64,000 nt of DNA from Lepiota brunneoincarnata (lineage: Eukaryota > Basidiomycota > Agaricomycetes > Agaricales > Agaricaceae), in contig JAEBUN010000002.1 of assembly GCA_023014365.1 (NCBI GenBank), forward strand, positions 3,100,001 to 3,164,000, given 5' to 3'. Position numbers and translations under genes: made by a program. Positions 1-37,119 of this stretch are shown in pieces; position 1 is the first letter of the stretch; each line of letters begins with the position of its first letter. A model generated the notes under the pieces. The model saw only the letters and a program-made list of their open reading frames with translations. It was not told the DNA's origin and made no database searches.

Positions 1-2765
1 GATTTCTCCACTCCGAGGATTGAACGTCGACATGACAACCCTCACCCCGTCCGTCTTTGATGCCCTAGCTATTAAAACACCCCACCTTCAAAATACGGTC
101 GCGAGCAGCACCTCGCACACCAACCTCCTCAATGGACGAAGTCGAGAAGAATATATAGGAGAAAGTGTCAAATATCCTGTCGCTCTCAGTAATGCGCTGA
201 CACCATGTAATTCTCGCATTTAGTTTTTTTTGCCTCTACACCTTCTATGGACCCGATTCTCGGGCTACGGACTTGGGCATAAAGGCGGGCATTGATTTAT
301 GGGTGCTATTTCGTACCATCAGTACGTATATTGCAGCCCCCTTGGGTTCCGCAGCCCGCGCCCGCAAGTGCAGGTGAGACAATTATATCTCGTATAGGAT
401 CGCGGACGTGATCCCGCGACTTGAGAGTGCTATATCACCTTTGCTAGGCAAGGCCAGCCCCTCAAATTGCGGTTGTTCTGACATGGGAAAGAGTGTGGAA
501 CTTGAGTCTTGAGAGGGTGTGATACCTGATGCCCGAGCGCTGCCAGACGCCTGCGACTTGCTGACAGGAGGTTCGAGTGCCGTCAACGAAGTATGAAGGG
601 ATCTGACGATGGTCACCTGTTTCCTCCGTATCAGGTGGTGATTGTGCCCGAAGGGCATAAAGTCGGTTGAGTGGGGAAAGAGCATTCAGATATTTGGAAC
701 CTACAACATGACCGAGTTTATTCTCGAGGATTCTGAACTGCTTCATTTTTATAGTACAACGAATCAACCGCATGTGAACTTGGAGCTGGAGTCATCAAGG
801 AAACTTGTGCCAAAACTAACGGTAATCATTTAGGCAGGTCTGATATTGAAGTGGATCTGACGGGCCTGGATGTCCTGTCCAGGCTTGACTATGATCTGGT
901 GCCCAAAAACAAGTTATTCAACGATCTGGCTGAAACTCCGAGACACGCCGAATTACTTACGACTGGTCCAATCCCAGGCTTATGTCTTCACCAGTGGCAG
1001 GGCCTAACTCTAGGAGCAGCACAAGGCATGATCAACAACATGTATGCTATATCCATTCCACGGAGCAACCCACTCGTAGGTATCGGCCACAGTCAGGGTG
1101 AGTACCCACTGGTATTCCGAGTCGGACCAAGTAAGCTGAGTGTCCGGGTCAGAACCCTAAGTCCAACTTTGGTAAGGGAAGTTGCACCTGGGTGTGGAAT
1201 ATCAATGTCGTGGGCTGACCTTTAACGCGACAAAATGGTTATCGGGTCCAGTAATGGTGACAATGGTGGGTTCAAGATCAGGAGGCGGATTAACAGTTAA
1301 TTTCTGATAGAAAATGGGATGAGTGCGATACTGGAACTTCTCCTAGTGGGTGGGCACGCAGCGGCTTTGTCAGGAAGAGAATTCTTGCCCTTGGCTGTCG
1401 TGACGACATTGCCCGGGCTTTCTCCTTGAGCGGTGAGAAAGAATATCGTGTTGGCGCTCATGATAGCATATGATTTAGGGCATGGCGATATGGGACGATG
1501 TGGGATGTGTTGAGCAAGTTCACTTTGCAGGGAGGGTTGCGAGCCTAGGGGAGCTGGAGGTATCGAGACAAGTGAGAGCATTTATATACCTTTCTCCGAC
1601 CCGTACTAACCTCGAATAGCTTTGCACTGCACTCATCGAATCCATGTTTTATTTAGAGGTATGGTACATGTTCCGTCGGATGATTCCCTTCACTTAGCGC
1701 CATCCAATGTTCAAATAGGACCCCGACTACATCCCAGCAAATGTCACTGGTCAGGGCCAGATCTGGTTGGAAGCCAAACAGCCGAGACAATGCCCCTTGG
1801 TAGGATATGCGCATATAGGGGAAATCAATCTCTATAGGCGCATAGAGCACCTGGATCCTCAAACATGGATTCTTCGCTCGGGTGGGAAGTCAATATCTTC
1901 GTTGGTCGATTCAGCTTTAGGTCGCGGATTTGTCTTAGGAAAGTTCATTATCAGAAACGGAAAAATGTGGTTGAGAGCACAGGGGCACCATTAGATGGCT
2001 TCCTAGATACCGGGTATAACCTGGGACGAAGCTTGAAAGTTCCGGGGTCCACCAAGTTTTGGTGGCGCAGGTTCGAAGGAACCCGAACAAATTGAAGGTA
2101 TGATATTTCCAGCATTTCATATGCACGTCGATGGATGAGTTGGCTGACGCCCTGATGTGAAGCTGCAATCTGCAGTGTGTTGGCTCGTCCTCAGCATGAT
2201 CGAGTCCTTGCGCACAGAGCTTGATAATGACATCAACATCATCGCCAGATCACATGACAATTAGCCAGCCAGTTTTGCGGACGAGGGTTCTGTCGGACTC
2301 CTAGACCCAGCGTGGCTTGGAGAGTGTCCGATAAGTATCAGAAGCTTATTCAATTACAAGCAGATTCCTGGATTTGAGAACCTTGGCTTGCCGAGCAAGA
2401 GTACATCCTTCGACGAGACAAATTATGGAGCGTGTCCAGTAGTCCGTTTCAGATTACTCAAGGAATGAGAAAGGAACTCTGACAGCACGGTGATACGGTC
2501 AAGTGTCGAGGTTGCCTTGTTGGCGCGCATCATCTAGTGTGTGTACTGAAACATACCAGCTTTGTGCTCCTATTAGAGAACTACTGTATGCAGCTGATGA
2601 ACGGCAACCATGAATGCTTTCCGAGTGCTTATTATTAACGAGATGTAGTATGATGACAACAATGACTGACTTTCTGAGGTCCTCGTTCAATTTCACCGAT
2701 ATCAAGATCACATAACATATAACTGGCCAGTCAATTTCGGACCCCTGTTCGTGAACAAGGGCAGA
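1..2765. repeat. Array unit A (truncated, subtype 2)
   Basis: This is the first recognisable copy of the array. It is probably cut by the window edge. Its first 400 bp match the start of unit H (about 35610) and partly unit G (about 30350), not the coilin-like module that precedes the small gene in units B to E. The small gene of this copy is a pseudogene at 830-1483. After its promoter the unit runs to about 2750 and then jumps directly into the start of unit B, so the middle block present in C, D and E is missing. The remaining sequence shows no convincing gene. Confidence 0.75.
830..1483 (-). pseudogene. Array small-protein gene, copy A (decayed)
   Basis: This aligns over its whole length with the intact five-exon copies B and C but is broken. 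The family start is followed two codons later by a stop because of a small indel; translation could only restart at an internal ATG near 1461 (MSANTIFFLTAQGES). The acceptor before exon 3, CTCAG in the intact copies, has lost its AG. Exon 4 carries an insertion and a deletion that remove the conserved DLYWFDKFG segment. Exon 5 is still open (IIVKPGQDIQARQ...). The upstream TATA box near 1579-1592 survives. This is a dead family member; the alignment is clear. Confidence 0.75.
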
Positions 2766-3343
2766 AGATGGGCAATAATCGTACAACCACGGTGATTCAT
2801 ATGATCCCACCTACGGTGACGACTACATTATCCCATGATGATCCAGAAGACTAAGGTTATGCGGGTGAAATGAGGGAGGGTGACCAACCTCAGTCCTCTG
2901 TGCCAATCTCCTTGGACCTCAGCACAAACACGACTGCTTCGTTCGACTGGAGTAAGGCGGAAAGGTCTTAGGATGCAAGTCCAAAGTTCACGCGAAAGGA
3001 GGATTTGAAAGAATGGGACATAATAAGCTGGAAAGTAAGGTACTGCTTTCCTCGGCCAATCCATCTCATAGCCTGACGAACCCCCATACGATAAAGCCTA
3101 GACATCCGTCCCAGACGCTCATGCCAAAAAATACTGCTCATTGCTGCTCAGGTCATCCAGTTCCCCTCCGTCGCCACTGGGGAGGTTCAGCGCTTGCTCA
3201 GACCTGTTGATCCTCACTCCCAGTTCTCGGACTTCCATGCGCCTGTCAGCGTGGATGAGTGTAGGGCAGAGATGGAACTACATCAATGGAATCACATACA
3301 GTTCTCGGATTAGCGTATTCTGCTCCCGTATGGACAACTATAG
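2766..3343 (+). pseudogene. Coilin-like 3' remnant (unit B)
   Basis: Read across frames, the plus strand spells a hydrophilic C-terminal domain: DWSKAE near 2950, EDLKEWDIISWKV near 3000-3040, then VQRLLRPVDPHSQFSDFHAP and AEMELHQWNHIQFSD up to about 3313. Units D and E repeat parts of it. The pattern of an acidic stretch, 'DxKEGDIIxWKV' and a terminal WDxI-like segment resembles the Tudor-like C-terminal domain of fungal coilin, a Cajal-body scaffold. Stops and frame changes interrupt it. Family identity is inference; the homology between units is seen directly. Confidence 0.4.
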
Positions 3344-3947
3344 GAAGGATACCCATACTGTTCAGGCTCAGTAATCATTGAACATTCAAATTCGCTCCCG
3401 CACTTGTTCGCTTCCCCATCCCCTCTACTCCCCCCCTGGGTCCACAGCTCGCACCTGCAAGCGCAGGCGAGACAATTACATTCGGTATGGGACCACGAAC
3501 ATGCTCCTATAACTTGAGAGTGCTATATCACCTTTGCCAAGCAAGGGTCAGCTCCTCCAATTATGGTCGTTCTGACATGGGGAACAGTGTGGAACTTGAG
3601 AAAGCGATAGCCTGATGCCTACTAAGCCCAATACTCATGGGCGCTGCCAGACACCTGTGACTTGCCGACAGGTGGTCGAGCGCCCTCAGCGAAGTATGAA
3701 GCTACAATAAGGGATGGAGGGGTGGTCACCTGTTTCTTCGATATCAGATGGTGATTGTGCCCGGAATGGCAAAAGGTCGGTGGCGGTTGGAGTAGGGGTA
3801 ATCAGAAGTTTGGAACGTACAACACAATCGAGTTTATTTTCGAGGATTCTGAACTGCTTTATTTTTATAGTACAACGAATCAATCACACGTGAACTTGAA
3901 GCTAAAGACATCGGAGAAACTCGCGCCAAAACCGACATTGACAGTAA

Positions 3948-4610
3948 TCAATCATTCTGGGGGAAGAAATCAAAGTAGCCTTCAGGGGCCTGAATGTCCC
4001 GTCCAGGCTTGACTATGACCTAGTACCCAAGCAAAAAGCTATTTAATCACATGGCAGAAACTCCGAGACATGCAGAGTTACTTACGATTGGTCCAATCCC
4101 AAACTTATCGAACCAGTAGAGGTCTTCACCAGTGGCAGGCCTAACTCTAGGAGTAGCACCAGGGAGTGATCAACCACATGTATGCTATATTCATTCCACG
4201 AGGCAACTTACTCGTAGGACCCGGACGCAGTCCGGGTGACTACCCAACGGTATTCGTCCTGAGACCAGGTAAGGTGAGTGTCCGGGTCAGAACTCTAAGC
4301 CCGATTTTGGTAAGAGAATCCGGTGTGGAATATTAATGCCGTTGGGCTGACCTGTATTGCGACGAAAAAGCCTTTGGGTCCTTGAATGGTAACAATGTTG
4401 GGGTGGTTAGAACTCAGACCCGGAGTGACAGTTAAAGCCTGAGTGAAAAAGAGGATGAATGTGACACTGGAACTACTAATGGGTGGCACGCACGGCGTTG
4501 GCAGGAATAGTGTCCGCTCCATTGACCGTCCTGACGTCGTTGCCGGGTGCTTCTCCTTCATGGGTGAGGTAGTATTTCGTGTTAGCGCTTGGGATCAGGT
4601 ATGCAGCCAT
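3948..4610 (-). CDS. Array small-protein gene, copy B (5 exons, 125 aa)
   Basis: Exons 4494-4610, 4352-4438, 4212-4258, 4086-4140 and 3948-4019 splice to 378 nt, that is 125 residues plus TGA. All four introns (55, 93, 71 and 66 bp) are GT-AG and the phases agree. The protein starts MAAYLIPSANTKYYL, continues with ALTVTPG and PNIVTIQGPKGFFVAIQ, then RWVVTRTASGSYE, GEDLYWFDKFGIGP and VIVKPGRDIQAPEGYF. There is no signal peptide, membrane segment or cysteine pair, so a cytosolic protein is likely. Short alternating hydrophobic strands separated by G/P/N turns suggest an all-beta fold. The closest pattern I can think of is the fungal beta-trefoil group (ricin-B-like lectins, mycocypin or I66 protease inhibitors), but it is shorter than most and the match is only suggestive. 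The start lies about 95 bp downstream of a TATA box. The same structure recurs in seven other units. Confidence 0.75.
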
Positions 4611-4700
4611 GGTGATGTGAGGTGGTGAGAGGCGTTGAAAAGGTTCAGTTCGCAGGGAGGGTTGAGAGCCTAGGGAGCTGGAGATATAGAGACAACTGGG

Positions 4701-4714
4701 AGCATTTATATACC
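4701..4714 (-). promoter_or_regulatory. TATA box of small gene copy B
   Basis: On the minus strand the sequence reads GGTATATAAATGCT-like and sits about 95 bp upstream of the ATG at 4610. The same element sits at the same distance in copies A, C, E, H and, slightly altered, D and G. This supports real transcription on the minus strand. Confidence 0.6.
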
Positions 4715-5382
4715 GTTATCCGACCGTACTAACCCCAAAGCCTGCACTGCACTTATCGAATCTATGCTCTATTTGGAGATACGTACATGTTCCGTCGGAC
4801 GACTCCTTTCGTTAGCGAAGAATCTGGCATCCAATATTCAAATGGGACCCCGGCTACACCCTCAAAGGTCATCAGGGCCCGATCTGGTTGGAAGCCAAAC
4901 GGCCGACCCAATTCTGAGCAACGCCTCTCAGGAGGATATGCGCATAGAGAAGGAATCTGTGCACCGAATACCTGGACTCTCAAATATGGATTCTTCACTT
5001 GGGTGGGGGGTTACGTGCTCTGCGGGGGTAAACGACATTGATGCTGACGGTAGCGGTACTATCTTCGTTGGTCGGTTCAACTCTTAGGTCGTTAGGAAAT
5101 GTTCATTCAACCTCAGAAAGGACAAATATAATTGAGAGCATGGGGGATCATTAGATGGCTTCCTAGATAATCTGGGGCGAATCTTGAAAGTTCCAGGGTC
5201 CATCAAATTTTGGTGGCGCGGGGAGTTCGAGAGAACCTGAAAAAATTGTAGGCAAAAATTTCCAACTTTTCATGTGCACGTCGATAGATAAGCTGTCTGA
5301 CAACCTGCCATGAAACTGCAATCAACAGTGTGTGGCTCGTTCTCAGCATCATCGAGCCCTTGCGTACAAAGTTTGATAATGA

Positions 5383-5700: not shown

Positions 5701-7189
5701 TGATTACCTGCTCTGCCGATTAGAAGACTCTGGTTGGGTAATTCATTCCTGCTTGCTAGCTTGGTGTTTGGTGCGAGTGTTCTGATGAGGAATTGCATCC
5801 TGTTCCATAAACCCTTCTGATCTCGTGAACCACCTTGCAGGTTCCACGGCGGAGATGACAGAAGCACTGGGGGTGGTGCGTGGTGATGCCATAGCCTGAC
5901 AAGTTGAATGCACTGTCAACAAATACCGTACAAGAATGATCCTGTCAGGAAACTTGGATTTTTATTACACATACGATGATATCAACATAAACATATATTA
6001 GAACTTTATCTAACAATAGCCCAACGGTTTGGTACTGTGCGACTCCGGCAACTTCGACTTTCAGTGCGGGAGGCTAAGGTTGATTGGTACGAGTGCTATT
6101 GGTGTAGGAGTATGGACAGCATAGTGCTTTCCAGCTCACCGGCAGAGCACAGGACTCGTGCCCACTCAAGTCGGGCATTGCTTCCGACTGTCATGCTCCA
6201 ACCTTTTTCACTTCACTTGGCTACGCGGGCTGTTATGGCCTCTAGCCTGCTTCACTTACCCATATGATGGGCAGATGAACGTATCTCATATTTCTGTGCA
6301 GAGACCACTGCATACGCGAAGTTCTGGGAGTGTAGTGTTACGGCAGATAAAGTCAGTCGCTGACTCGCGTCGAGTTCCGCTGACTGTAGCCAGGCCAGGA
6401 GGAAGTTTGTTTGCAAGGTTCCATGGTAGAAGCTGGTCGGAAGTCCCGTGGTGATCCTGTCCTACGGCGGCTGATGACCATATCAAGATAGCGTGGCAAC
6501 CGTGGTCTTTGCGCATCGCACGAACCCTTCTTGCTGTACAGTCCGCGAAACAGCACAGGGTACCTGTTCTTCCACAGGAAACACCAGGAGTGTGTGAAAC
6601 CTGAAACATGTTTGGCGCTTGTAAGTGATCGACCGATTTACATTGGGGCCTGCCGCAACAAGGAATGGACGCCACCTGTCGGGAAGGTTACGGGGAACCC
6701 CCCTGGACGCTCTTCATATGTTATGAGTACCGAACGCCACCCGATATGACATGCTACACCTCGTTTAGCCTCACACAAGGTTGGACGAATTGCCTGCGAC
6801 AGCCTGGCATACAGTACGGGAAATATTTTAGGACGGAACACAATCAATTCTGACAGACACTTTACCCCAGGATCTCCTCATCGCATGGCGGGGGCCATTT
6901 TTCGGGTTTGGTTATGCCAACTCGTCCGCCGCCAAACACACAGTCGAAGGACTATAAATTCTGCCTCCTTTGAGTTTATTGAATCTGATGCTCTCTCCAG
7001 TGGTCTGCCCTGGAGAACCCCAAGCACCTTTCTCTGACCATCTGGAGCTCGAGTCCCAAGGCTCTTCTAGAAGACACAAGGTCGATTGTTGCCAGTTGCT
7101 CCACTGCCGACGTTCCTATGTCAATCCTTCGTGACATCCTCATCCCCCTTGCTGATTGTGATGCTCAGATCAGCATCGCACTCGGTTTC

Positions 7190-8165: not shown

Positions 8166-8837
8166 TCAATCATTCCGGGGGTAGAAATTGAAGTAGCCTT
8201 CGGGGGCGTGGATGTCCCGCCCAGGCTTGACTATGACCTAGTACCCAAGCAAAGGTTATTCAACCATCTGGCAGAAACTCTGAGACAGGCCGAGTTACTT
8301 ACAATTGGTCCAATCCCAAACTTGTCGAACCAGTAAAGGTCTTCACCAGTGGCAGGCCTAATTCTGGGAGTAGCACCAGGCAGTGATTAACCACATGTAT
8401 GCTATATTCATTCCACAGAGCAACTTACTCGTAGGACCCGGACGTAGTCCGGGTGACTACCCACTTGTACTCCTTCTGAGACCAGGTAAGGTGAGTGTCC
8501 GGGTCAGAACCCTAAGCCCAAGTTTGGTAAGAGAAGCTGCACCCGGTGTGGAACATTAATGCCGCTTGGGCTGACCTGTATCGCGACATAACAGCCATTG
8601 GGTCCTTGAATGGTGACAATGTTGGGGCCGGCAGAACCCAGACCCGGAGTGACAGTTAAAACCTGAGCGAAAAAGAGGATGAGTGTGACACTGGAACTAC
8701 TCCTAGTGGGTGGTACGCACGCTCTCGGGAGGAATACCATTCGCACCATTAGCCGTCGTGACGACGTTGTTGGGTATCTCTTCGTGAGTGGTGAGGTAGT
8801 ATTCTGTGTTGGCGCTTGGGATCCGGTATGTAGACAT
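8166..8837 (-). CDS. Array small-protein gene, copy C (5 exons, about 125 aa)
   Basis: The five-exon structure is the same as copy B, with every splice site intact and phases consistent. Segments: MSTYRIPSANTEYYLTTHEE, then NVVTTANGANGIPPES; VLTVTPG and PNIVTIQGPNGCYVAIQ; KEYKWVVTRTTSGSYE; PATGEDLYWFDKFGIGPI; VIVKPGRDIHAPEGYFNFY, ending RND-stop at 8166-8168. Differences from copy B cluster in the first exon and the start of exon 2, while the DLYWFDKFGIGPI and VKPGRD parts are unchanged. This suggests constraint on the C-terminal half. No function can be assigned; an all-beta lectin- or inhibitor-like fold is a guess. The TATA box is at about 8930. Confidence 0.72.
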
Positions 8838-8943: not shown

Positions 8944-11900
8944 TTCTCTGACTGTACTAACCCCAAAGACCTGCACTGCACTTATCGAATCCATGTTCTA
9001 TTTAGAGGCACGTACGTGTCCCGTCCGGATGATCCCTTTCAGTTAGCAAATAATCTGGCATCCAATATTCAAATGGGACCCCGGCAACACCCCTCAAAGG
9101 TCATCGGGGCTTAATCTGGTTGGAAGCCAAAGGGCCAACCCAATTCTGAACAACGCCTCCCAAGAGGATATGTGCATAGAGAGGGAATCAACTTCTGTAT
9201 GTGGACCAAATAACTGGGCTCTCAAATATGGATTCTTCGCTTGGATAGGGAGTTACGTGCTTTGCAAGGGTAAAGGTCATTGATGTTGACGGTAGCAATG
9301 TTATCTTCTTTGGTCGGTTCAGCTCTCAAGTCGTGGATTTGCTCTAGGCAAAGTTCATTCAGCCTCAGAAAGGACAAATATAGTTGAGAGCATGGGGGAC
9401 CATTAGATGGCTTCCTGGATAATCTGGGACGAATCTTGAAAGTCCCAGGGTCCATCAAGTGCTGGTGGCGCAAGGTTCGAAGGAACCTGAAAAAATTGTA
9501 GGCGAAAAATTTCCAACCTTTGATGTGCATGTCGATAGACCAGTTGTCTGGCGACTTGCCATGAAACTGTAATCAACAGTGTGTTGGCTCGTCCCTCGGC
9601 GTGATAGAGCCCTTGCGCACAGAGCTTGATAATGATGTCGTCAATCGCCAGATCACATGATAATTAGCCAGTCAGATTTTAAAAGCCCCTGTTTGCGAAC
9701 GAGGGTTCTGTCAGACACTTCTAGACCCAGCGTGGCTAGGAGAGTGTTCGATAAGTATTGGAAGATATATTGATCATAAGCCAGATTCCTGGATTTGGGA
9801 ACCCTGGCTTGCCGAGCAATATTACATCCTTCCACTAGGTGATCATGGAGTGTGTTCCAGTACTCCGGCTCAGATTACTCAAGGGATGAGAAAAGGATCC
9901 TCAAAGCATGGCGGATTCCAAAATATTCGGTCAAGTGTCGAGGATGCCTTGTTGGCGCGGCATCATCTAGTGTGTGTACTGAAGCCCACCGCTTTGCGCC
10001 CCTATCGGAGAATTAGTTATGCAGCTGATCAAGCGGCAACCACGAACAAGTGACGAATGGCTCTTGCCGAGTGTTTATTACTAACGAGATGTAATATAGT
10101 GGTAACAAGTGACTGACTTCCTGAGGTCCTCATTCAATTCACCGGGATCACATGATCACTGGCCAGTCAGATTTTGTTCGTGAACAAGGGTTCTTCCTCC
10201 AAAGTCAAGACTTCTAGAACCACTCGCGCACTTTGGCTTCCTTATGGAAGACGTTGGCCGGAAGCGAGGATTGAAGTAATAATATAGGTCTCCTTCAAAT
10301 CTTAACCTTAAACGGTTGGCAGTGTGCGTCAGAATCGGTAGGCGTCAATAATAGGCCGCCACCAAGGAGATAACGAGTTCCTCTGAGGAACAAACCTTAT
10401 CAATGAGCATTCGTCATTCACACCAAAAGTAGGTCTCGTATATGAATGTTCTCAGTTTAAATTGAACCAATAGCTGCTATACTATACAACCAAAAGGCGA
10501 AGAGGTTGGTTCTGTGGGCAGTCGCATGTTTTCATCTCCTCAGTGGGCGAACGTCCCTATTCCGAACTCGCCCTCTTTGCTATGGGATGATTGACTGATT
10601 ATCTGCTCTGCCGATTAGAAGATTCTGGTTGGGTAACTCATCCCTGCTTGCCAGCTTGGTGCTTGGTGCGAGTGTTCTGATGTAGGAATTGCATCCTGTT
10701 ACATAAACCTTTCTGATTTCGTGAACCACCTTGCAAAGTTCCACGGCGGAGATGTCAGAACTTCAGAAGCACTGGAAATAATGCATGGCGGTGCCATAGC
10801 CTGACAAGTCGAATGCACTGTCAACAAATAGCGTACAAGAATGATCCCTGTTAGGAAACTTGGACTTCTATTATAAAAATGACAGTCATAATGGTGCGTG
10901 CATTCCCTTCAATTCAATTCTGTGGGGTCTGAGTTGCCATTGAACCTAGGCAAAGGCTTGACCATGCTTTTCCCTCATAAACGCCGAGCTTCCTAACTCC
11001 CAGATAATCGCTTGAGGTTCACCGAGGGAGGGTGATCAGCATGGACAGCATAGCGCTTTCCAGCTCACCGGCAAAGCACCATATGCGTGCTCCTTCATAG
11101 TCGAGCATCAGGCTCCGGCTGTTATGCTCCAACCTCCTTCACTTCACTGGCTGCGTGATTCTGGGGACGACCAGTCCACTACAGGCCTCTCGTCATGGTC
11201 TAGTGGTGGGCCAACCAAACCCTTTGCCCAACCACGGGCGGTCGCCTACTTCGATTGCCAGAGGCTTATCTGGTGATCGCCAGTTGCCAGATCGTAAAAC
11301 ACTGTTGCGTAGTTCCACCACGACTGATCTATTGATTGTGGAGGAACGCGAGGAACTCATGTTCAAAGTAGTCCTCCTCCCAGAGGTTTCCTTCTCGTCG
11401 GGTAATAGGCGAAACCGACTGTGCAGTCCTGGATTATATTCCTCGCTGACTTATACACAGGCCGAGAAGACGTTTGTCTGTAAGGTTCCGTGATAGAAGC
11501 TGGTCGGAAGCCCCGTGGCGATCCCATCCTACAGTGACTGATGACGCATGGCGACCGTGGTCTTGGCGCATCGCACGGATCCTTCTTGCTGTACAGTCCG
11601 CGAAACAGCACAAGGTACCTGTTCTTCTAAAGAAAACATCAGGGAGCATGTGAAACTTGAAACATGTCTAGCAGCTTGATCGACCGATCTACAATGAACC
11701 TGCCGCAACAAGGAGTGAACGCCATCCATCAGGAAGGTTATGGAGAATCCCCCTGGACTCTCTTCATGTGTTATGAGTACTGGACGCCGCCTGATATGAT
11801 ATTCTACACCCCGTTTAGCCTCACACAAGTTTGGACGAATTACCTGCGGCACTCTGGCACACGGCACGGGTAGTATTTTAGGACCGAACGCGATCGATTC

Positions 11901-12539
11901 TAATGGACACTCTACCCCAGGATCCGTACATAAGGTGGCAGGAGCCATTTTTCGTGCTTGATTGTGCCAAGTTCCAACAACTGTCATGTATCGGTACCCG
12001 TTCCGCTGCCAAAACACACAGTTGAAGGACAATATATTCGGCCTCCCTTGAGTTTATTGAATCTGATACTCCCTCCAGCGGCCCACCTGGAGAACTCCAA
12101 GCACCTTTCGCTGATCATCTGGAGCTCCAGTCCTGAGGCTCTTCTAGAGGACACAAGATCGAATGTTGTCCGGTTGCTTCGCTGCCGACTTTCCTACGTC
12201 AACCCTTCGTGACATACTCATCCTTCTCAAGTACCAGATGCCCGGAGCTGTACCTTGAGGGCATTCCTCCTTGCTGATCAGTGATGCTCGGACCAGCATC
12301 GCATTCGGTTTCTTTTGTTCCTGCCACCTGGCAATGAAGGATGGTTTAGCCAGGTACACATCATGAGCTACACTGCCTAGAACTCCAGCTTGAGGACGAG
12401 ATGAGACTGAGTTTGTGTCTTGCTCAACACTCGTGCACACTGACCTCGCCCTCACTACTCGAACTAATACCAGGGCCTCCACTTGATCAACACAACATTC
12501 ATTGGACTCAGGAATTGAAGCTAGCTCTTATATGAGAAC

Positions 12540-13792: not shown

Positions 13793-14457
13793 TCAAGCGT
13801 GGTTGAATTTAAAGTAGCCTTCAGGGGGCTGGATGTCCTTTCCAGGCTTGACTATGACCTAGTGCCCGACCAAAAAGTCATTCAACCATCTGGCAGAAAG
13901 CCCGAGACACGCCGAGTTACTTACGGTTCGTCCAACCCCAAACCTATTGAACCAGTAAAGGTTTTCACCGCTGTAAGGCCTAACTCTAGGAGTAGCACAA
14001 GGCAGTGATCAACCACATGTATGCTATATTCATTGCACGGAGCAACTTACTCATAGGACCCGACCTCAGTCGGGGTGACTACCCACCTGTATTCCTTGCT
14101 AGACCAAATAAGCCTTCTGTCCGGTTCGGGAGCCTAAGTCCAACTTTGGTCAGAGAAGTTCCACCCAGGTATGAAATATTAATATCCTAGGCTGACCTCT
14201 AACGCAACATAAAAGCCAGCGGGTCCTTGAATGGTGACGGTGGTGGGGCCAGGAACCAGAGGTGGGGTAACAGTTAAAACCTGAGCGAAAAGAGGATGAG
14301 TGCGGCACTGGAACTACCCCTAGCGGGTTGCGCGCACGGTCTCTGCAGGAATACCATCCGTGCCATTGGCCGTCGTGACGACGTTGTTGGGTAATTCTTC
14401 GTGAGTGGTGAGGTAGTAGTTCGTGTTAACGCTTGGGATCCGGTAGTATGCAGCCAT
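13793..14457 (-). CDS. Array small-protein gene, copy D (5 exons)
   Basis: The predicted product starts MAAYYRIPSVNTNYYLTTHE and continues VLTVTPPLVPGPTTVTIQGP, AGFYVALE, then EYRWVVTPTEVGSYE, GENLYWFNRFGVGRT and VIVKPGKDIQPPEGYFKFNH, ending at 13793-13795. The usual exon-3 acceptor has become TCTAGCAAG: using the AG of TCTAG shifts the frame, while using the AAG four bases on keeps it, so the model needs the shifted acceptor. Other sites are standard. This protein differs from B and C at many positions in the N-terminal half and also in the DLYWF region, so it is a diverged but apparently functional paralog. Confidence 0.62.
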
Positions 14458-14992: not shown

Positions 14993-16252
14993 TTATGCAG
15001 CTGATCAACAGCAACCATGAACAAATGACAAATGGCTCTTTCCGAGTGCTTAATACTAACGAGATGTAATATAGTGGCAACAATGGCTGACTTTCGGAGG
15101 TACCCATTCAATTTCACCCGTATCGGGATCACATGATGGCTGGCCAGTCAGATTTCATTCGTGAACAAGGGTTCTGCCAAAGTCAAGACTTCTAGAACCA
15201 GCCCACTCACGCACTTTGGAACTTCCTTGCAGAAGGCGTTGGCCAAAATCGAGTACTAGTACCAGGTATCTGCGATTGGACAACTATCCAACATACCCTC
15301 GCTGAAAGCAAGGATCGAAGTAATAATATTTAAACCCTTGATTGAAAGGATAAAATATGTCTCCTTCATATCATAACCTTGAACAGTTAGCGGTGTGCAT
15401 CAGAATCAGGAGACGTCAATAATAGGCTGGCACACCAAGGAGCTGGCGAGTTCCTTCGGGGAGCCAACGTTATCAATGAGAATTCACCATTAACGCCAAA
15501 GGCTAGCTTTCGTATACGAACATTGTCAGTTTCGATTGAGCTAACAGTTGTGATACTATAGAGTAAAAGGCAAAGAAATTGGTTCTGTGGCTAGTTTTTC
15601 TGCAAGTGTTCTGATGAGGAATTGCATCCTGTTCCATAAACGTTTCTGATTTCGTGAGCCACCTTGCAAGTTTCACGGCAGAGATGACAGACGCACTGGG
15701 AACAGTGCGTGGAGTGCCTGCATTTACGTGGTGGTGTCATAGCCTGACAAGTCGAATACACCCCCAACAAATACCGTACAAGAATGATCCCTTTGGAAAT
15801 ATGGATTTCTATTATAAACATGAGCGTCGTAATGGTGCGTGCATTCCCCTCAGTTCAGTTTCTGAGTTGCCATTCAGTCTAGGCAAAGGCTCGAGCATGT
15901 CTTCCTTCATGAACGGCGAGCTTCCTAGCTCCATAATGATTGCTTGAGTTTCACTGAGGGAGGGTGACCAATGTGGACAGCAGAGCGCTTTCCAGCTCAC
16001 CGGCAGAGCACCATACACGCGCTCCCTCATAGTCGAGCATCGATTCCGGCTGTTATGGTCCAACCTTCTTCACTTCACTGGCTACATGATTCTGAGGGCG
16101 AACCAGTCCACTGCAGGCCTCTCGTCATGGCCTAGTGGTGGGATAACCAAACCCTTTGCCCAACGTCAGGCAGTTCACCCACTTCGATTGCCAGAGGCTT
16201 ATCTGGGGATCTCCAGCTGCCAAATCATAAAACACTGCCGCATGGTTCCACC

Positions 16253-16624
16253 ATGAGTGATCCATTGATTGTGGAGGAGCGCGAGCAACCCACGTTCAAA
16301 GTAGTCTTCCTCCCAAAGGTTTCCTTCTCGTCGGGTAATAGCCGGAAGCGACTGTGCGCTTCCAGTTCTGGATTATGTCCCTCCGTTGCCAGTGCAGTGC
16401 TGTTATGGCCTCTAAACTGCTCCACTTACCCGTATGATGGGCAGATGAACGTACCTCATATTTCTGCACAGAGATCACCACATACACGGAGTGCTGGAAG
16501 TCCCATGTCACCACAGACAGAGTTAGTCGTTGACTCGCTTTGTGTTCCGCTGACTGTACACAGGCCAAGAGGAAGTCTGTCTGCAAGGTTCTGTGGTAGA
16601 AGCTGGTCGGAAGCCCCGTGGTGA
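16253..16624 (+). other. Block Y open frame, conserved between units C, D and E
   Basis: The frame begins MSDPLIVEEREQPTFKVVFL in unit D, and the same frame is open in unit E (22540 onward) and, with substitutions, in C (about 11330). Downstream the three copies diverge and frames change. The reverse strand is also open in places, so coding status is undecided. No domain is recognised. Block Y is absent from units G and H, where block X takes its place. Confidence 0.25.
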
Positions 16625-17089
16625 TCCTGTCCTACAACAACTGATGACACATGGCGACTGTGGTCTTGGTGCCTCGCACGGATCGTTCTTGCTGTACAGT
16701 CCGCGAAACAGCACAAGGTACCTATTCTTCCACAGAAAACATTGGGAGCGTGTGAAACTTGAATGTTTGGCGCATCTGAGTGATCGAACCGATCTAAGTT
16801 ACAATGAGCCTGCCGCGACAAGGAGTGAACGCCATCCGTCAAGAAGGCTATGAAGAATCCCCCTAGACTCTCTTCATATGTTATGACTGGACGCTGCTTG
16901 ATATGACGTTCTACACCTCGTTTAGCCTCACCCAGTTTTGGACGAATTACCTGTGGCACTCTGACACACAGCACGGGTACCACCTTAGGACAGAACGCAA
17001 TCAATTCTGACAGACTCACGATAAACACTCTGTCTCAGGGTCTCCACTTAATCAATGCAAAATTTATCAGTTGACTCAGGAATCGAGGA

Positions 17090-19335: not shown

Positions 19336-19979
19336 TCAGGAGCCTGGATGTCCCTGTCCAGGCTTGACTATAACCTAGTGCCCAAGCAGAAGGTTATTAA
19401 ACCATCTGGCATACACTCCGAGACTGGCTGAGCTACTTACGATTGGTCCAATCCCGAACCTATCGAACCAGTAAAGATCTTCGCCAGCGAAGGGCCTAAC
19501 TCTAGAAGCAGCACAGGACAGTGGTCAACCAGATGTATGCTATATTCATTCCACGGAGCAACTTACTCGTAGGACCCGAGCGCAGTCGGGGTGACTACCC
19601 ACTGGTATGGCTTACTAGACCAAATAAGCCTTCTGTCCGGTTCAGGAGCCTAAGTCCAACTTTTGTAAGAGGAGTTCCACCCGAGTATGGAAAATTAATG
19701 TCATGAATGTCCTAGGCTGACCTCTAACGCGACATAAAGGCCAGCGGGTCCTTGAATGCTGACGATGGTGGGGCCAGGACCCAGAGGTGGGGTAACAGTT
19801 AAAACCTGAACGAAAAGAGGATGAGTGCTACATTGGAACTACTCCTAGCGGGTGGCACGCACGCTCTCGGGAGGAATACCATTCGCGCCATTAGCCGTTG
19901 TGACGACGTTGTTGGGTATTTCTTCGTGAGTGGTGAGGTAGTAGTTCGTGTTAACGCTTGGGATCCGATATGCAGCCAT
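19336..19979 (-). CDS. Array small-protein gene, copy E (C-terminal frameshift)
   Basis: Exons 1 to 4 read normally: MAAYRIPSVNTNYYLTTHEE, VLTVTPPLGPGPTIVSIQGP, AGLYVALE, PYQWVVTPTALGSYE and PFAGEDLYWFDRFGIGPI. The exon-3 acceptor is the same shifted AAG as in copy D. In exon 5 one extra G relative to the other copies turns VKPGxDI into VIVKPGQGHPGS-stop at 19336-19338, removing the last 11 or so residues including the conserved PEGYF motif. Without it the stop would be near 19308. This is either a recently damaged allele or a truncated functional variant. The TATA box near 20071 is intact. Confidence 0.55.
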
Positions 19980-20083: not shown

Positions 20084-23000
20084 TTTCTCTGACTGTACTG
20101 ACCCCAAAAACCTACCCTGCACTTATCGAATCCATGTTCTATTTAGAGGTACGTACGTGTCCCGTCGGATGATTCCTTTCATTAGCAAATAATGTGGCAT
20201 CCAATATTCAAATGGGACCCCGGCAACACCCCTCAAGGGTCATCAGGGCTTGATCTGGTTGGAAGCCAAAGGGCCAACCCAATTCTGAACAACGCATCCC
20301 AGGAGGATATGCGCATAGAGAGGGAATCAACTTCTGTATGTGCACCGAATAACTGGGCTCTCAAATATGGATTCTTCGCTTGGATGGGGAGTTACGTGCT
20401 GTGCAAGGGTAAACGTCATTGATGTTGACGGTAGCCAATGTTATCTTCTTTGGTCAGTTCAGCTCTTAAGTCGTGGATTTGCTCTCTAGGAAAAGTTCAT
20501 TCAGCCTCAGAAAGGACAAATATAGTTGAGAGCATGGGGGACCATTAGATGGCTTCCTCGATAATCTGGGACGAATCTCGAAAAGTTCCAGGGTCCATCA
20601 AATTCTGGTGGCGTGGGTTCGAAGAAACCTGAAAAAGATTGCAGGCAAAAAGTTTCCAGCTTTTCGTATGCACGCAGATGGATAAGCTATCTGATACCAT
20701 GCCACGAAGCTGCAATCAACAGTGTGTTAGCTCGTCCTCGACATGATCGAGCCTTTGCGCATAGACTTTGATAATGGCAAGATTATCAACATCATTGCCC
20801 GATCATATGACAATTAGCCAGTCAGATTCTACAACCCCTGTTTACGAACGAGGGTTCGGTCAGACTTCTAGACCCAGCATGGCTAGAAGAGTGTTAGATA
20901 AGTATCGGACGATCATTCAATCATAAGCAGGTCCCTGGGTTTGGGAACCTTGCTTTGCCAAGTAATAGTACATCCTTCCACTGGGTTATGAGACAGGTGC
21001 GGAACGTGCCCCAGTACTCTGACTCAGATTACCCAGGGGATGATAAAGGGATGCCGACAGCATGGTGGATTCCAGTATATTCGGTCGACTGTCGAGGATG
21101 CCTTGTTGGCACGCTTTGCGCCCCTATCAGGATATTAGTTATGCAGCTGATCAACGGCAACCATGAACAAATGACAAATGGCTCTTTCCGAGTGCTTATT
21201 ACTAACGAGATGTAATATAGTGGCAACAATGACTGACTTCCTGAGGTCCTCATTCAATTTCACCCGTATCGAGATCACATGATGGCTGGTCAGTCAGATT
21301 TCGTTAGTGAACAAGGGCTCTCTGCCAAAGTTGAGACTTCTAGAACCAGCCCACTCGCGCACTTTGGAACTTCCTTGCAGAAGGCGTTGGCCAAGATCGA
21401 GTACTAGTACCAGGTATCTGCAATCGGACAGCTATTCAAAATGCCCTTGCTGAAAGCAAGGATCGAAGTAATAATATTTAAACCCTTGATTGAAGGGATA
21501 AGAAACGTCTCCTTCATATCATAACCTTGCACAGTTAGCGGTGTGCATCAGAATCGGTAGACGTCAATAATAGGTTGCCACCCCCAGGAGCTGGCGAGTT
21601 CCTTTGGGGAGCAAACGTTATCAATGAGAATTCATCATTAATGCAAAAGGTAGGTTTCGTATATGGACATTGTCAGTTTCAATTGAGCTAACAATTGTTA
21701 TACTATAGAGTAAAAGGCAAAGAGATTGGTTCTGTGGCTAGTCGCATGTTTTTGTTTTTTCGGTAGGCAAACGCCCCTATTTCGAATTCGTCCCCCTGGC
21801 CATGGGACAGATGGACTGACTATCTGCTCTGCCGATTAGAAGATTCTGGTTCAGAAATTCATCGCAGTTTTCCAGCTTGGTGCTTTGTGCAAATGTTCTG
21901 ATGAGGAATTGCATCCTGTTCCATAAATGTTTCTGATTTCATGAACCACCTTGCAAGTTTCACAGCGGAGATGACAGAAGCACTGGGAACAGTGCGTGGA
22001 ATGCCTGCATTTACGTGGTGGTGTCATAGCCTGACAAGTCGAATGTACCACCAACAAATACCGTACAAGGATGATCCCGTTAGGAAATATGGATTTCTAT
22101 TATAAACATGAGAGTCGTAATGGTGCGTGCATTCCCCTCGGTTCAATTCTGTGGGGTCTGAGTTGCCATTCAGTCTAGGTAAAGGCTCGACCATGTTTTC
22201 CTTCATAAACGGCGAGCTTCCTAGCTCCACGATAATCACATGAGTTTCACTGAGGGGGGGGGGGTGATCAACGTCGACAGCATAGTGCTTTCAAACTCAC
22301 CGGCAGAGCACAGTACGCGCGCTCCCTCATATTTGAGCATTGGTTCTGACTGTCACGTTCCAACCTCCTTCAGCTCACGTAGCCAGAGACAACAGTTCAC
22401 TGCAGACCTCCCGCCATGGCCTAGTGGTGGACTAACCAAATCTTTGCCCAACCACGGGCAGTCGCCCACTTCGATTGCCAGAGGCTTATCTGGGGATCTC
22501 CAGCTGCCAAATCATAAAACACTGCCGCATGGTTCCACCATGAGTGATCCATTGATCGTGGAGGAGCGCGAGCAACCCACATTCAAAGTAGTCTTCCTCC
22601 CAGAGGTTTCCTTCTCGTCGGGTAATAGGCGAAGCGATTGTGCGCTTCCAGTCCTGGATTGTGTCCCTCCGTTGTCAGTGCGTGCTGTTATGGCCTCTAG
22701 CCTGTTTCACTTACCCGTATGATGGGCAGACGAACGTACCTCATATTTCTGTGCAGAGATCACCACATACGCGGAGTGCTGGGAGCCCAATGTCACCACA
22801 GACAAAGTCAGTCGCTGACTCGCTGTGAGTTCCGCTGAATGTACACAAGCCGAGAGGAAGTCTGTCTGCAAGGTTCTGTGATAGAAGCTGGTCGGCAGCC
22901 CCATGGCGATCCTGTCCTACAGCGACTGTGGCCTTGGCGCATCGCATATGTCCTTCTTGCTGTACAATCCACGAAATAGCACAGGTTACTTGTTCTTCCA

Positions 23001-23819
23001 CAGAAAACATTGGGAGCGTGTGAAACTTGAATGTTCGGCGCTTGTGAGTGATCGACCAATCTAAGTTACAATGAGCCTGCCGCAACAGGGAGTGAACGCC
23101 ATCCGTCAAGAAGGTTATGAAGAATCCCCCTGGACCCTCTTCGTACGTTATGAGTACTGGGCACTGCTTGATATGACATTCTACACCTCGTTTAGCCTCA
23201 CACAAGTTTGGATGAATTACCTGCGGCACTCTGGCACACAGCACATTTTGGGACAGAGTTTGCGTGCTTGGTTATGCCAACAACCGTCATGTACATATAT
23301 CAATGTTCGTCCGCTGCCAAAACACACAGTCGAAGGACTATAAATTCTGCCTGCTTTGAGTTTCTTGAGTCTGATGCTCCCTCCAGCCGTCTGCCTGGAG
23401 AATCTCAAGCACTTTTTGCTGACCATCTGGAGCCCCAGTCCCAAGGCTCTTCTAAAGGACACGAGTCAACCGTTTTTCAGTTTCTTCGTTGCCGACGTTC
23501 CTACGTCATTCCTTCGTGACATCCTCATCCTTGTCAAGTACCAGATACCCGGAGCTGTGTCTTGAGGGCATTCCTCCTTGCTGATCGTGATGCTCAGACC
23601 AGCATCGCATTTGGTTTCTCTGTTCCTGGCAATGAAAAATGATTCGTCCAGGCACTGATCATGAGATACACTGCTCAGAACTCCGAGACGGGACCTTGCT
23701 CGACATTCATGCAGGCTGGCCTCGCACTCACTACTCGAACCAATACCAGGGTCTCCACTTGATCAATGCAAAATTCATCAGTCGACTCAGGAATCAAGGA
23801 TAACTCTTGTATGAGAGCC

Positions 23820-24455: not shown

Positions 24456-26125
24456 GAGTTCTTCTCATTACTGTCGTTCTAACATGGAAAAACCGTAGGA
24501 CTTGAGAGAGTGATAACAAGATGCCCACTATGCCCCATGCTCATGAGCGCTGCCAGACGCCTGTGGCTTGCCGACAGGTGGTTGAGCACCGTCATCGAAG
24601 TAAGAAGAGGCTACAATGGGGGATGGAGCGATGGTCCCCTGTTTCTTCCATATCAGATGATGATTGTGCCGGAACGACATAAAGTCTGCGGCATCTGGAG
24701 TGGGGGGGAAGGTCATTCAGATATTTGGAAACGTACAGCATGGTTGAGTTTATTTTCGAAGATTCTGAACTGCTTTGTTTTTATAGTACATCAAATCAAT
24801 CACATATGAACTTGGAACTGGAGTCGTCAAGGAAACTCGGACAAAAACCGACATGGACAGTACTCAACCCGCGGGAATGAAGTCGAAGTAGCCTTGAGGG
24901 GCCTGGATGTCCTGTCCAGGCTTGACTATGTATGACCTAGTGCCCAAGCAAAAAATTATTCAACCATCTTGCAGAAACTCTGAGACACGCCGAGTTACTT
25001 ACGATTGGTCCAATCCCAAACCTATCGAACCAGTAGAGGTCGTCGCCGGATATAGGCGTAACTCTAGGAGCAGCACAAGGCAGTGGTCAACGACATGGAT
25101 GCTATATTCATTCCACAGAGCACCTTACCTGTAGGACCCGGGCGAAGCCTGGGTGACTATCCAATGGTATTCCATCCGAGACCAAGTAAGGTGAGTATCC
25201 GGGTCAAAACCCTAAGTCCAGCTTTGGTAAGAGAAGTTGCACCCGGCGTGGAACATTAATGCCGTTGGGCTGACCTGTATCGCGACATAACAGCCATTGG
25301 GTCCTTGAATGGTGACAATGTTGCGGCGGCCGAAAATCACAGACGGATTAATAGTTAAAAGCTGAGCGAAAAAGAGGATGAGTGCGACACTGGAACTACC
25401 CCTAGCGGGTGGCACGCACAGCATTGGCAGGAACATCATCCGCGCAATTGGCTGTCTTGACGTCGTTGCCGAGTGCTTCTCCTTGAGTGGTGAGGCAGTA
25501 TTTCGTGTTGACGCTTGGGATCAGGTATAAAGTCACGGTGAGGTGGGACAGTGAGCGGCGTTGAAAAGGTTCAGTTAGCAGGGAGGGTTCCGGCCGTACT
25601 AACCTCAAAAGGCCTGCACTACACTTATCGAATACACGTTCTATTTAGAGGTACGTGCATGTTCTATCGGATGATTCCTTTCATTAGCGAAGAATCTGGC
25701 ATACAAATTTCAAGGGGGACCCCAGCTACACCCCTCAAAGGGCATCAGGGGGTTGGAAGCCAAACGGCCAACCCCACTCTTAACAACGCCTCTCGGGACG
25801 ATATGCGCACAGAGAGGGCATCTGTGCATCAAATACCTGGACTTTCAAATGTGGATTCTTCACTTGGATGGGGAGTTACGTGCTTTGCGGGGGTCAACGT
25901 CATTGATGTTGACGGCAGCAGTATTATCTTCGTTGGTCGATTCAGCTCTCAGGCCGTGGATCTGCCTTCGCAAAAGTTCTCTCAACCTCAGAAAGGACAG
26001 ATATTGTTGAGAGCATGGAGGACCATTAGATGGTTTCCGAGATAATCTAGGACGAATCTTGAACGTTCCAGGGCCCATCAAATTCTGGTAGTATGGATGG
26101 GTTCGAAGGAACATTGTAGGCAAGA
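24456..26125. repeat. Array unit F (short, truncated)
   Basis: Only the small-gene module and about 500 bp of its upstream region remain. Homology to unit E ends near 26123, where the fragment of an AMP-binding enzyme begins abruptly. This is the right edge of the A-F block. Confidence 0.75.
24864..25536 (-). pseudogene. Array small-protein gene, copy F (dead, promoter deleted)
   Basis: This is alignable to copy H over all five exons (TLYLIPSVNTKYCLTTQGEA..., LLTINPS, NIVTIQGPNGCYVAIQ). The start codon is GTG where the other copies have ATG (25534-25536). The AG of the exon-3 acceptor is lost, and a 4-bp duplication (CATA) near the start of exon 5 shifts its frame. About 50-60 bp upstream of the gene, including the TATA box, are deleted. 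Four independent lesions make this an old pseudogene. Confidence 0.75.
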
Positions 26126-31076: not shown

Positions 31077-31744
31077 TCAATTAGCGGGCGTGAAAACAAA
31101 GTAGCCTTCAGGGGGCTGGACATCCCGTCCGGGCTTGACTATGATCTAGTGGCCAAGCAAAAGTGATTAAACCATTTTGGCGGAGACTCCGAGACACTCC
31201 GAGTTACTCACGATTGGTCTGATTCCAAACTTATCGAACCAGTAGAGGTCTTCGCCGGTGGCAGGCCTAACTCTAGGAGTAGCACAAGGTAGTGATCAAC
31301 CACACGTATCCTATATCCATTCCATGGAGCAACTTACTCATAGGGCCCGGACGAAGTCTGGGTGACTACCCACTGGTATGGCTCGTCGGACCAAGTAAGC
31401 CGAGTATCTGGGTCGGAATCCTAAGTCCAATTTTGGTAAGAGAAGTTCTACCAAGGTGTGGAATTTTAACGCCGTGGGCTGACCTTTAACGCGACAAAAT
31501 AACCGTCAGGTCCTTGAATAGTGACAATGCTGGGGCCAGGATGAAGGGGCCGACGAATGGATAAATTCTGAGCGGAAAAAAGGTGAGTACGACACCGCAA
31601 CTGCTCCTAGCGGGTGGCATGCACGGCACTGGGAGGCGTAGAATCCGCACCATTGGCGGTCAGGACAGCGTTGCCGGGGCGTTCTCCTTGAGTGGTGACA
31701 TAGTATTTCGTGTTGGTGCTCTGGATATTGTATACTGCGGCCAT
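31077..31744 (-). CDS. Array small-protein gene, copy G (5 exons, most diverged intact copy)
   Basis: It starts MAAVYNIQSTNTKYYVTTQG, then NLSIRRPLHPGPSIVTIQGP, DGYFVALK, PYQWVVTQTSSGPYE, PATGEDLYWFDKFGIRPI and IIVKPGRDVQPPEGYFVFTP, with the stop at 31077-31079. All splice sites can be placed; the exon-3 acceptor is a variant (ACGAG) that trims one residue, as in copies D and E. The first two exons are clearly different from B, C and H, whereas exon 4 is nearly unchanged. The TATA element near 31839 has a small change. Function is unknown, as for the rest of the family. Confidence 0.65.
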
Positions 31745-31835: not shown

Positions 31836-31848
31836 GAGCATTTATATC
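31836..31848 (-). promoter_or_regulatory. TATA-like element of small gene copy G
   Basis: AAGATATAAATGC on the minus strand lies about 95 bp upstream of the ATG at 31744. Relative to copies B and C it has lost one TA step but keeps the ATAAATGC core. Confidence 0.45.
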
Positions 31849-33609: not shown

Positions 33610-34895
33610 TTCTATCCGGCAAGGCTGGCGAGCTGACATCCCAAATGACAGGTGCGCCGAAGCTCTACCTGATCTCTTCCTTTCGCAAGTTGAATCAGAC
33701 CCGGTAACCCACCACGAGTACTACCATCATCAATAGACCATGCGTGTATCCAGTCCCTCAATTGACAAATCTCCAAGCTCTTCCAACTCCTGAACATGAG
33801 TTGTCAGCACGATTATGACCAGTTGATTATGGTACATACTCATATGATATCCTGAGACGCGATTTCTGAATACAGCTAATCCAAGAGGCCAACAAATGGC
33901 TACACGCTGGACTGGGGATAAGCAGTCTGTCGGATGGAAGTGGGTGGGACCTGCCAATAACAGATAGCGAAACCGTTATCATGGAGGTGCAGTATATGCA
34001 CAACTGTTTGGTTCCGATCCAACGCCTGACATTGGCGATTCCCGTCAACACCGAACAGTTACTTTGTCAACCTAGGCCCCTCAGTTCCTTTATGAAACAT
34101 TCCACCTGTTGCTGAGATTTCCTGGAGCCTTCCCATAGGATTCCCCACAGCAGTTCTTTCAGAAAAACATGGGACTGGGACTGTAGAACTTTTGCCATGT
34201 GTGGATTGCTATGCTATTTTTGACCTTGGCTTGCAGAAAAAGGCCTTTCCTGGTCATACTATAATCAGGTTGAAAGTGAGAAGTGTAAATAGTGTAGCCA
34301 TGCCAGTTCAACAAGGGTCTATGCGTAGCTATTTCCCTCGTGCACCGAACCCACTATCGGCTAAAGCCGAGAGCCCATCACTTCACACCGAGCATGACCA
34401 AAGCATCATCCCCAAACCACGGCCTTCAGGTCAGGCATATAGGAGGATATACGTGTACTCAATCACATGCCAAGCCTTTGGGGACCTGCTCCGTAACCGT
34501 AAACACCACACAACGCTTTGAGTTACTGCACCCCCAAACCATAACCTCCATAAAAGGTGCAGCTTGAATCCAATGCGTCACCCTTCCAAGGAGCACTCTC
34601 CAGCGAATCTTATACCCAAACAGCTGCATAAAGGTCACCAGAATGAATGAGGGACATAGCTATCAATATATAGCTCGCCTCATCACTATATTTCGAGATC
34701 ACGATATATACCCTGTGTGGTAGCGCAGCTTGTGCATTTGCCACTGAAGAGGTAAACCATACAGCCTTTTCGTGAACGATACTATTTATGTCCAATGAAC
34801 ATAAGATTCGCCTTTGCTTAAGTCCTCCTGGAAAATGCTAAAATTTAAAGGATAATTCATAGCAAGAAGATCAGGAGCATACATGAGCAAGCGTT
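33610..34895. repeat. Block X, copy in unit G
   Basis: About 1.3 kb, repeated at about 38000-39283 in unit H with visible high identity in its right part (for example 34330-34800 against 38660-39150). It is absent from units A-F. Open frames on either strand do not keep the same frame in both copies, so I find no supported gene. It ends near the sequence GAGCAAGCGT in both copies. Confidence 0.6.
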
Positions 34896-36453
34896 AGGGC
34901 AGGAGGGTACACGAGGTCTGGTAAGTGGGCGCACTCCCCTACGACCACTAGAACACAATCAATTCTAAGGGACTCGTGATGAACACTCTACAGCCTCTAC
35001 CAGCCATTCTTCGTGGTTGGTTATGCCAACGGCTGTCGTGCATCACGATATCAATGCCCGTCCCGCTTGCCAAAACACACAGTTGAAAGACTATAAATTC
35101 TGCTTCCCTTGAGTTTATTGAATCTGATACTCCATCCACCCGTCCGCCTGGAAAACCCGTGAACTCCTTGTTGACCGTCTGGAGCTCTAGTTCCAAAGCT
35201 CTTCTCGAGGACACGAGGTCGGTCGTTGTTCGGTTGCTTCGCTGCTGACTTTTCTACGTAAACACTTCGCGACATACCCATTTTTGCCAAGTACCAGATA
35301 ACCCGAAGCTGCGCCTTGGGGGCAATCCTTCTTGCTGACCACAATGCTCAGATTAGCGTCGCATTCGATTTCATCTGTTCCTGGGAATGAAGAGTTCTGG
35401 TTCGGCCAGGCACCAATCATCATGCCCCAATCTATACTGCCTAGAACTCCGGCTTGAGGACATCCCTCAGAACTCCATCCGATTGGGCCGAGACTGAGCT
35501 CATGTCTCACGAGCCACTCAAAACTCACTGCAGGCTGACCTCGCCCTCACTACTTGAGCTAATACCAGGGCCCCCACTTAATCAACGAAACACTCTCAGG
35601 AATCAAGGACGCCATGACTCCGAGGATTGAACATCGACATGACAACCCTCGCCCTGTCCGCCTTTAGTGCCCTAGCTTTTGAAATGCCCTACCTAATAAG
35701 TACGTCGTCTATATTGTGTTGCGACCAGCATCCCGCACATCGACTTCATTAATGGACCAAGTCATGAGGACACTACTAGTGTTAAAATATCCTGTTGCTT
35801 CTAGTGATTGCCTGATACCATGCAATTCTCGCATATAGTTTCCGTTGGCTCTACGTCTTCTGTGGACCCAATTCTCGGAATACAGACTTGGGCATAAGAA
35901 GTGGGCATTAATATATGAGTGCTAATCTGTACCATTAGTGCGTAAATTGCAAGCCCCCTTGGGTTCCATAGCTCACACCCACAAGTGTGGGCAAGACAAT
36001 TATATCTGGTATAGGACCACGGACATGATCCCATGACTTGAGAGAGTGCTATATCACCTTTGCCATGCAAGGGTCAGCTCCTCCAATTACAGGTTGTTCT
36101 GGCATGGTAAAATGCGCAGACCTTGAGAGAGCGTGATACCTGATGCCCGAGCGCTGCCAGGTGCCTGCGACGGTGTCCTCAACGAAGTATGAAGCTAAAA
36201 TAAGGGATATAGCGATGGTCATCTGTTTCTTCGATATGGAGATAGTGGTTGTGCCGGAATGGCATAATATCGGTGGCGGTTGGAGTGGGGGGAAGAGAGC
36301 ATTCAGATATTTGGAAACGTACAACACAATCAATTTTATTTTCGGGGATTCCAGAACTGCTTTATTTTTCATAGTACAACGAGTCAATCACACGTGAACT
36401 TGGGGAGCTGGAGTCATCAAAGAAACCCGCGCCAAAACCGACATTGACAGTAA

Positions 36454-37119
36454 TCAATCATTCCGGGGGAAGAAATCAAAATAGCCCTCGGGGGCGTGGA
36501 CGTCCCGTCCAGGCTTGACTACGACCTGGTACCCAAGAGAAAGGTTGTTCAACCACCTGGACAAGAAACTCCGAGACAGGCTGAGTTACTTACAATTGGT
36601 CCAATCCCAAACTTGTCGAACCAGTAAAGGTCTTCGCCGGTGGCAGGCCTAACTCTAGGAGTAGCACCTAGGGAGTGATCAACCACATGTATGCTATATT
36701 CATTCCACGAAGCAACTTACTCGTAGGACCCGGACGCAGTCCGGGTGACTACCCAACGGTATTCGTTCTGAGACCAGGTAAGGTGAGTGTCCGGGTCAGA
36801 ACCCTAAGCCCGACTTTGGTAAGAGAATCCGGTGTGGAATATTAATGCCGTTGGGCTGACCTGTATCGCGACGAAAAAGCCTTTGGGTCCTTGAATGCTG
36901 ACAATGTTGGGGCGGGTAGCATCCAGACCCGGAGTGACAGTTAAAACCTGAGCGAAAAAGAGGATGAGTGTGACACTGGAACTACTAATGGGTGGCACAC
37001 ACGCCATTGACAGGAATAGTATCCGCTCCATTGGTCGTCCTGACGTCGTTGCCGGGTGCTTCTCCGTCATGGGTGAGGTAGTATTTCGTGTTAGCGCTTG
37101 GGATCAGGTATGAAGTCAT
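36454..37119 (-). CDS. Array small-protein gene, copy H (5 exons, about 125 aa)
   Basis: All five exons and four GT-AG introns are intact. Segments: MTSYLIPSANTKYYLTHDGE, NDVRTTNGADTIPVNG, VLTVTPGLDATRPNIVSIQG, PKGFFVAIQ, NEYRWVVTRTASGSYE, PATGEDLYWFDKFGIGPI, VVVKPGRDVHAPEGYFDFFP, ending RND-stop. It is closest to copy B although they are 32 kb apart and belong to different unit subtypes. That points to gene conversion or unequal exchange across the array rather than simple neighbour-by-neighbour duplication. Confidence 0.72.

Follow-up and report, generated by a model that had tools for sequence, protein, structure and literature searches.

Which genes, and what kind of protein, lie behind an array of very short exons in the genome of the mushroom Lepiota brunneoincarnata? 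The array occupies part of a 64,000-nucleotide stretch of contig JAEBUN010000002.1 (assembly GCA_023014365.1; C14:3100001-3164000, hereafter the window), in which a first-pass annotation made from the letters alone had claimed eight minus-strand copies of a five-exon gene of unrecognized family. We searched the window and the whole genome (55.6 Mb in 95 contigs) for the gene and analyzed its products. The copies form a genuine multicopy family, as that annotation had supposed, and Pfam has no model for it; the encoded proteins are predicted to be beta-trefoils, and codon models support positive selection at a minority of their sites. They may serve as cytosolic binding proteins of the mushroom defense type.

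Gene structure in the window

Searches by tblastn with the exon pieces recovered all eight copies, A–H, at 836-37119, every one on the minus strand with its pieces in order (Table 1), and the best exon-1 match per copy had an E value between 4e-24 and 5e-9. Once spliced, five of the eight (B, C, D, G and H) are intact and encode proteins of 137-139 aa. Their exons measure 117-120, 84-87, 83, 61 and 66-72 nt (the last including the stop codon), and their introns, 55-68 nt long (55, 57, 65 and 66 nt in copy B), run from GT to AG in phases 0/0/2/0 in each copy. The eight loci and the agreement of splice phases among the intact copies proved real; the proposed dimensions needed correction: exons put at 47-117 nt measure 61-120 nt, the protein is longer than the 125 or so residues claimed, and the array, described as 39 kb, spans 36.3 kb. 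The repeating unit extends over 0.4-37 kb with a spacing of 4.2-6.2 kb, but the gap between A and B is 3.1 kb. Because no exon exceeds 120 nt, the family is easily overlooked by gene finders; short-exon tandem families are able to hide even in a genome of few, long contigs.

Copies A, E and F are broken. Besides its defective start, copy A has a non-GT donor at the position read as intron 1, and its exon 4, detected by tblastn only as two short, weak pieces, carries indels and a stop codon. A frameshift in exon 5 of copy E yields a 127-aa product missing the last strand.

Table 1. Features of the window (positions in the window; exons in the direction of transcription)
Feature	Position	Strand	Exons	TATA box	Remarks
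Copy A	836-1483	-		start 1588, 105 bp before the ATG	Broken; ATG at family position 1483, stop two codons on, out of frame
Copy B	3948-4610	-	4610-4494, 4438-4352, 4294-4212, 4146-4086, 4019-3948	4707-4712 (-), starts 102 bp before the ATG	Intact, 139 aa
Copy C	8166-8837	-	8837-8721, 8662-8576, 8511-8429, 8363-8303, 8237-8166	start 8940	Intact, 139 aa
Copy D	13793-14457	-	14457-14338, 14280-14197, 14133-14051, 13985-13925, 13858-13793	start 14531	Intact, 137 aa
Copy E	19336-19979	-	19979-19863, 19805-19722, 19649-19567, 19501-19441, 19374-19336	start 20081	Broken
Copy F	24873-25536	-		none within 250 bp upstream	Broken; GTG replaces ATG; exon 5 indel
Copy G	31077-31744	-	31744-31625, 31567-31484, 31420-31338, 31272-31212, 31145-31077	start 31846	Intact, 138 aa
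Copy H	36454-37119	-	37119-37003, 36947-36861, 36803-36721, 36654-36594, 36525-36454	start 37218	Intact, 139 aa
NLR-type open frame (NPHP3_N/NACHT)	39617-41191	-			Adjoins copy H
Spacer repeat between gene copies	15597-17040	.			Further copies 6227-6858, 11188-11908, 21884-23285, near 33399

Members across the genome and their promoters

With copy B as the query, 66 matches at E <= 10 resolved into 16 loci genome-wide, eight in the window and eight outside it. Copies I and J lie on the plus strand at C14:3.089-3.094 Mb, about 7-12 kb to the left of copy A; K, M, N and O lie on the plus strand at C14:3.170-3.243 Mb; and contig C25 carries P (minus) and Q (plus). Five of the eight outside the window (J, M, O, P and Q) are intact and have phases matching those of the window copies, and I, K and N are apparently broken, as judged by eye. 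In total, 10 of the 16 loci are intact and 6 are broken. All 40 introns of the ten intact copies are GT..AG with identical phases, at splice sites that were chosen by the analyst. When homologous proteins (see below) were used as genome queries, P0003 revealed no locus beyond the 16, and P0006 added one weak match on contig C2 (E 1.85).

The sequence TATA[AT]A is located 74-105 bp upstream of the ATG in every one of the ten intact copies. It also precedes three of the six broken copies (A, E and I), while none was found within 250 bp upstream of the other three (F, K and N).

Copies K and N and copies M and O form close duplicate pairs on C14, at 3.170-3.174 and 3.221-3.243 Mb. M and O have no intron differences. 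Of the 27 aligned positions that distinguish K from N, 21 show CpG in K where N has TpG or CpA; this bias points to decay of N driven by methylation. A short repeated sequence stands immediately downstream of N.

Relatives in other fungi

Copy B alone retrieved no homolog in a search that relies on shared 5-residue words, a requirement that makes absence of homologs elsewhere weak evidence. An alignment of the ten intact copies led to two proteins of Phlegmacium glaucopus (E 9.5e-29 and 1.9e-23), and a mixed five-sequence alignment led to six, of which five belong to P. glaucopus and the other is a Joint Genome Institute (JGI) protein; the relatives found are hypothetical proteins. Over 128 residues, P0003 and copy B share 45% identity. 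Since the window exon peptides align colinearly and in order along the P. glaucopus homologs, the exons and splice sites gain independent support. P0002 of P. glaucopus has about eleven additional residues where exons 1 and 2 meet, probably owing to the retention of intron 1 in its gene model.

Pfam searches of family members gave no model for the family: RicinB_lectin_2 matched 3 of 10 members below the cut-off, with a best E of 0.022, and P0001 reached 14.4 bits where the cut-off is 25.6. The family searches returned no Pfam or PDB sequence match to mycocypins or cospin, and the window had no match in Rfam. Among the entries listed, literature searches largely without subscription papers showed no account of this family or its selection; in one search these entries were 8 of 133, and none of them mentioned P. 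glaucopus. Within the scope of these searches the family is undescribed; its fold is already known.

Predicted fold and invariant motifs

A structural model built from six homologs alone was poor (predicted local distance difference test score, pLDDT, 40), and the addition of the window exon peptides raised the pLDDT to 88. The predicted fold is a beta-trefoil, in which twelve strands form three four-strand repeats that match solved trefoils; the first-pass annotation had suggested a check for this fold, and its claim of a small all-beta protein is supported. The first of the 50 structural matches listed is the cocaprin CCP1 (PDB 7znx; about 10% identity), and the list includes the Ricin-B-like lectins CNL (3nbe), MpL (4ion, 4izx), RSA (4g9m) and MOA (2iho), where Z differences below 1 count as ties. 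Clitocypin, macrocypin and cospin are not among these 50. The family proteins, about 15 kDa and mostly acidic, contain 0-2 cysteines and lack a hydrophobic stretch at the N-terminus; for these reasons they are probably cytosolic, as had also been proposed.

Two motifs are present in all 16 sequences: W-x(4)-Y-x-W, which surrounds the beta7-beta8 turn, and PxxGx(D/N), at the beta9-beta10 turn. In the model, both lie where the second subdomain meets the third. The QxW motif occurs in none of the 16, in any subdomain. The CCL2 signature LPxxYVW is likewise found in none, and Y-x-W by itself is found in all.

Selection on individual sites

Codon models were fitted with home-made code to nine sequences, copy M being dropped because it is near-identical to O, and branch lengths were scaled from M0. 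The median pairwise ratio of nonsynonymous to synonymous substitution (dN/dS) was 0.62 (45 pairs), and the one-ratio estimate (w) was 0.74. Model M2a improved on M1a by twice a log-likelihood difference (2dlnL) of 44.5, placing 15.5% of codons in a class with w 3.9, and by 43.0 with per-exon trees. When restricted to 114 strict columns, the statistic was 19.8 with one tree and 15.5 with per-exon trees (P 4e-4). None of the 18 null simulations completed reached the 20.2 observed in the same analysis, their maximum being 6.4. Because three random trees raised the statistic to 40-58, gene conversion is a remaining concern for this signal.

Mean divergence at codon positions 1+2 was 0.258, versus 0.235, 0.217 and 0.248 for introns and flanks, and these positions exceeded the introns in 20 of 36 pairs and the 3' flanks in 15 of 36. 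We therefore dropped the proposition that exons evolve faster than introns overall and kept the claim of selection site-wise only; an average near that of introns and flanks is to be expected where fixed sites are mixed with fast ones. Enrichment of the selected sites in loops as a class was not significant. The fast sites lean toward the bottom of the modeled barrel with P 0.005, or 0.0006 including strand ends, when terminal columns with misaligned start codons are counted; without the termini, P is 0.018 for the two loops and 0.064 once strand ends are added, and it rises to 0.148 when gap-adjacent columns are left out too. Their concentration there is suggestive, a hint only.

Possible functions

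Cytosolic trefoil lectins and inhibitors have been reported within mushroom defense (PMC3355094, PMC9104457). The explanation that we favor, for and against which the balance is even, is that the array encodes a new family of such proteins: its twelve strands would form the trefoil core, and a side pocket may resemble that of CCL2. The paralogs would be produced inside the cell from similar TATA promoters and would target glycans or proteases of attackers, or else proteases of the fungus itself; duplication, loss and rapid change of some residues would shift their specificity. The earlier guess at a defense lectin, a protease inhibitor or a recognition factor stands in so far as the nearest folds include fungal defense lectins and a protease inhibitor; its argument from a neighboring gene is weak (see below).

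As to what is bound, a lectin and an inhibitor are near-equal readings, neither of which we hold more than tentatively. A possible lectin would bind glycans through a noncanonical, CCL2-like site at the beta/gamma interface and act against fungivores. In CCL2 of Coprinopsis cinerea (PDB 2lie, 4uso), YxW replaces QxW in subdomain beta, and Y92, V93, W94, W78 and G108 make up the sugar site at that interface; Y92A had no measurable binding and W94A bound 221-fold less (PMC3355094). The family shares the predicted trefoil, the substitution of YxW for QxW in subdomain beta, the short beta7-beta8 turn, and a glycine in the beta9-beta10 turn, a resemblance of strand register only. CCL2-like lectins are defined by LPxxYVW in a short beta7-beta8 loop and by binding to alpha1,3-fucosylated chitobiose, whereas our family lacks that signature and lacks QxW in every subdomain. 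The absence of QxW also separates it from CNL, MpL, RSA and MOA, to which its identity is 12-15%.

Slightly less likely is a cocaprin- or mycocypin-like inhibitor, whose exposed trefoil loops would occlude cysteine or aspartic protease active sites, with loop changes shifting the target. Cocaprins, exemplified by C. cinerea CCP1, are likewise mostly acidic trefoils of about 15 kDa without a signal peptide and with tandem paralogs, and mycocypins (clitocypin, macrocypin) and cospin are also fungal beta-trefoil protease inhibitors (PMC9104457). The criteria for a cocaprin are sequence homology to CCP1 and inhibition of C1 cysteine and aspartic proteases. The family has no detectable sequence homology to CCP1 and 16 loci versus three cocaprin genes, and the Pfam and PDB searches gave no sequence match to mycocypins or cospin. 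In the structural ranking, Z differences below 1 are ties, and inhibition would leave the invariant YxW and glycine turn unexplained.

We consider it unlikely that these are endogenous regulatory trefoils that control the fungus's own proteases or partner another protein. Cocaprins offer a precedent, in that they reportedly inhibit fruiting-body proteases and were not toxic to the nematodes and mosquito larvae tested (PMC9104457), but the number of copies, their gain and loss, and positive selection at individual sites suit conflict better than housekeeping. A shade more doubtful still is a protein with two surfaces, one being an invariant CCL2-like side pocket that holds a constant ligand and the other made of fast sites elsewhere, perhaps at the barrel bottom, that meet changing partners; the weak enrichment there lowered our estimate of it. 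If it were true, each genome would end up, through tandem duplication and loss, with a variable repertoire of cytosolic recognition proteins. Functionless decaying duplicates or chance open frames, which the six broken loci and the overall w might suggest, are very improbable given the uniform introns (albeit at analyst-chosen sites), the homologs in another genus, and the worse fit of w=1 for all codons (log-likelihood -2657.4 vs -2653.6), with 42% of codons at w 0.18.

A family of defense-type binding proteins, as we favor, would add a new sequence family, with natural paralog variation, to the fungal beta-trefoil repertoire of defense and inhibition, and its conserved and fast sites mark candidate residues for binding.

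Neighboring sequences

The NOD-like receptor (NLR)-type frame beside copy H had been offered as a functional clue. The genome contains at least 150 NPHP3_N (NLR-type) loci (150 of 407 candidates were scored), so that finding one close to a cluster of about 50 kb is unremarkable; the adjacency is uninformative, the frame is probably a chance neighbor, and we rejected its position as evidence of a partnership.

Outside the window, the spacer repeat recurs on C14 at 3.086 and 3.325-3.406 Mb and has a single short match on C36. A second hidden gene within it was rejected, as the repeat showed no codon periodicity and no Pfam match, and most of its indels are not divisible by three. To the right of the array, open frames at 42737-59766 matched actin, MBOAT, CRAL/TRIO, EMG1 and an F-box-like domain, with glyoxal oxidase below the cut-off. 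Several NLR-type matches and one ricin-like match turned up twice with equal scores, once on C1 and once on C46; this pattern suggests that C46 represents either an alternative haplotype or a duplication.
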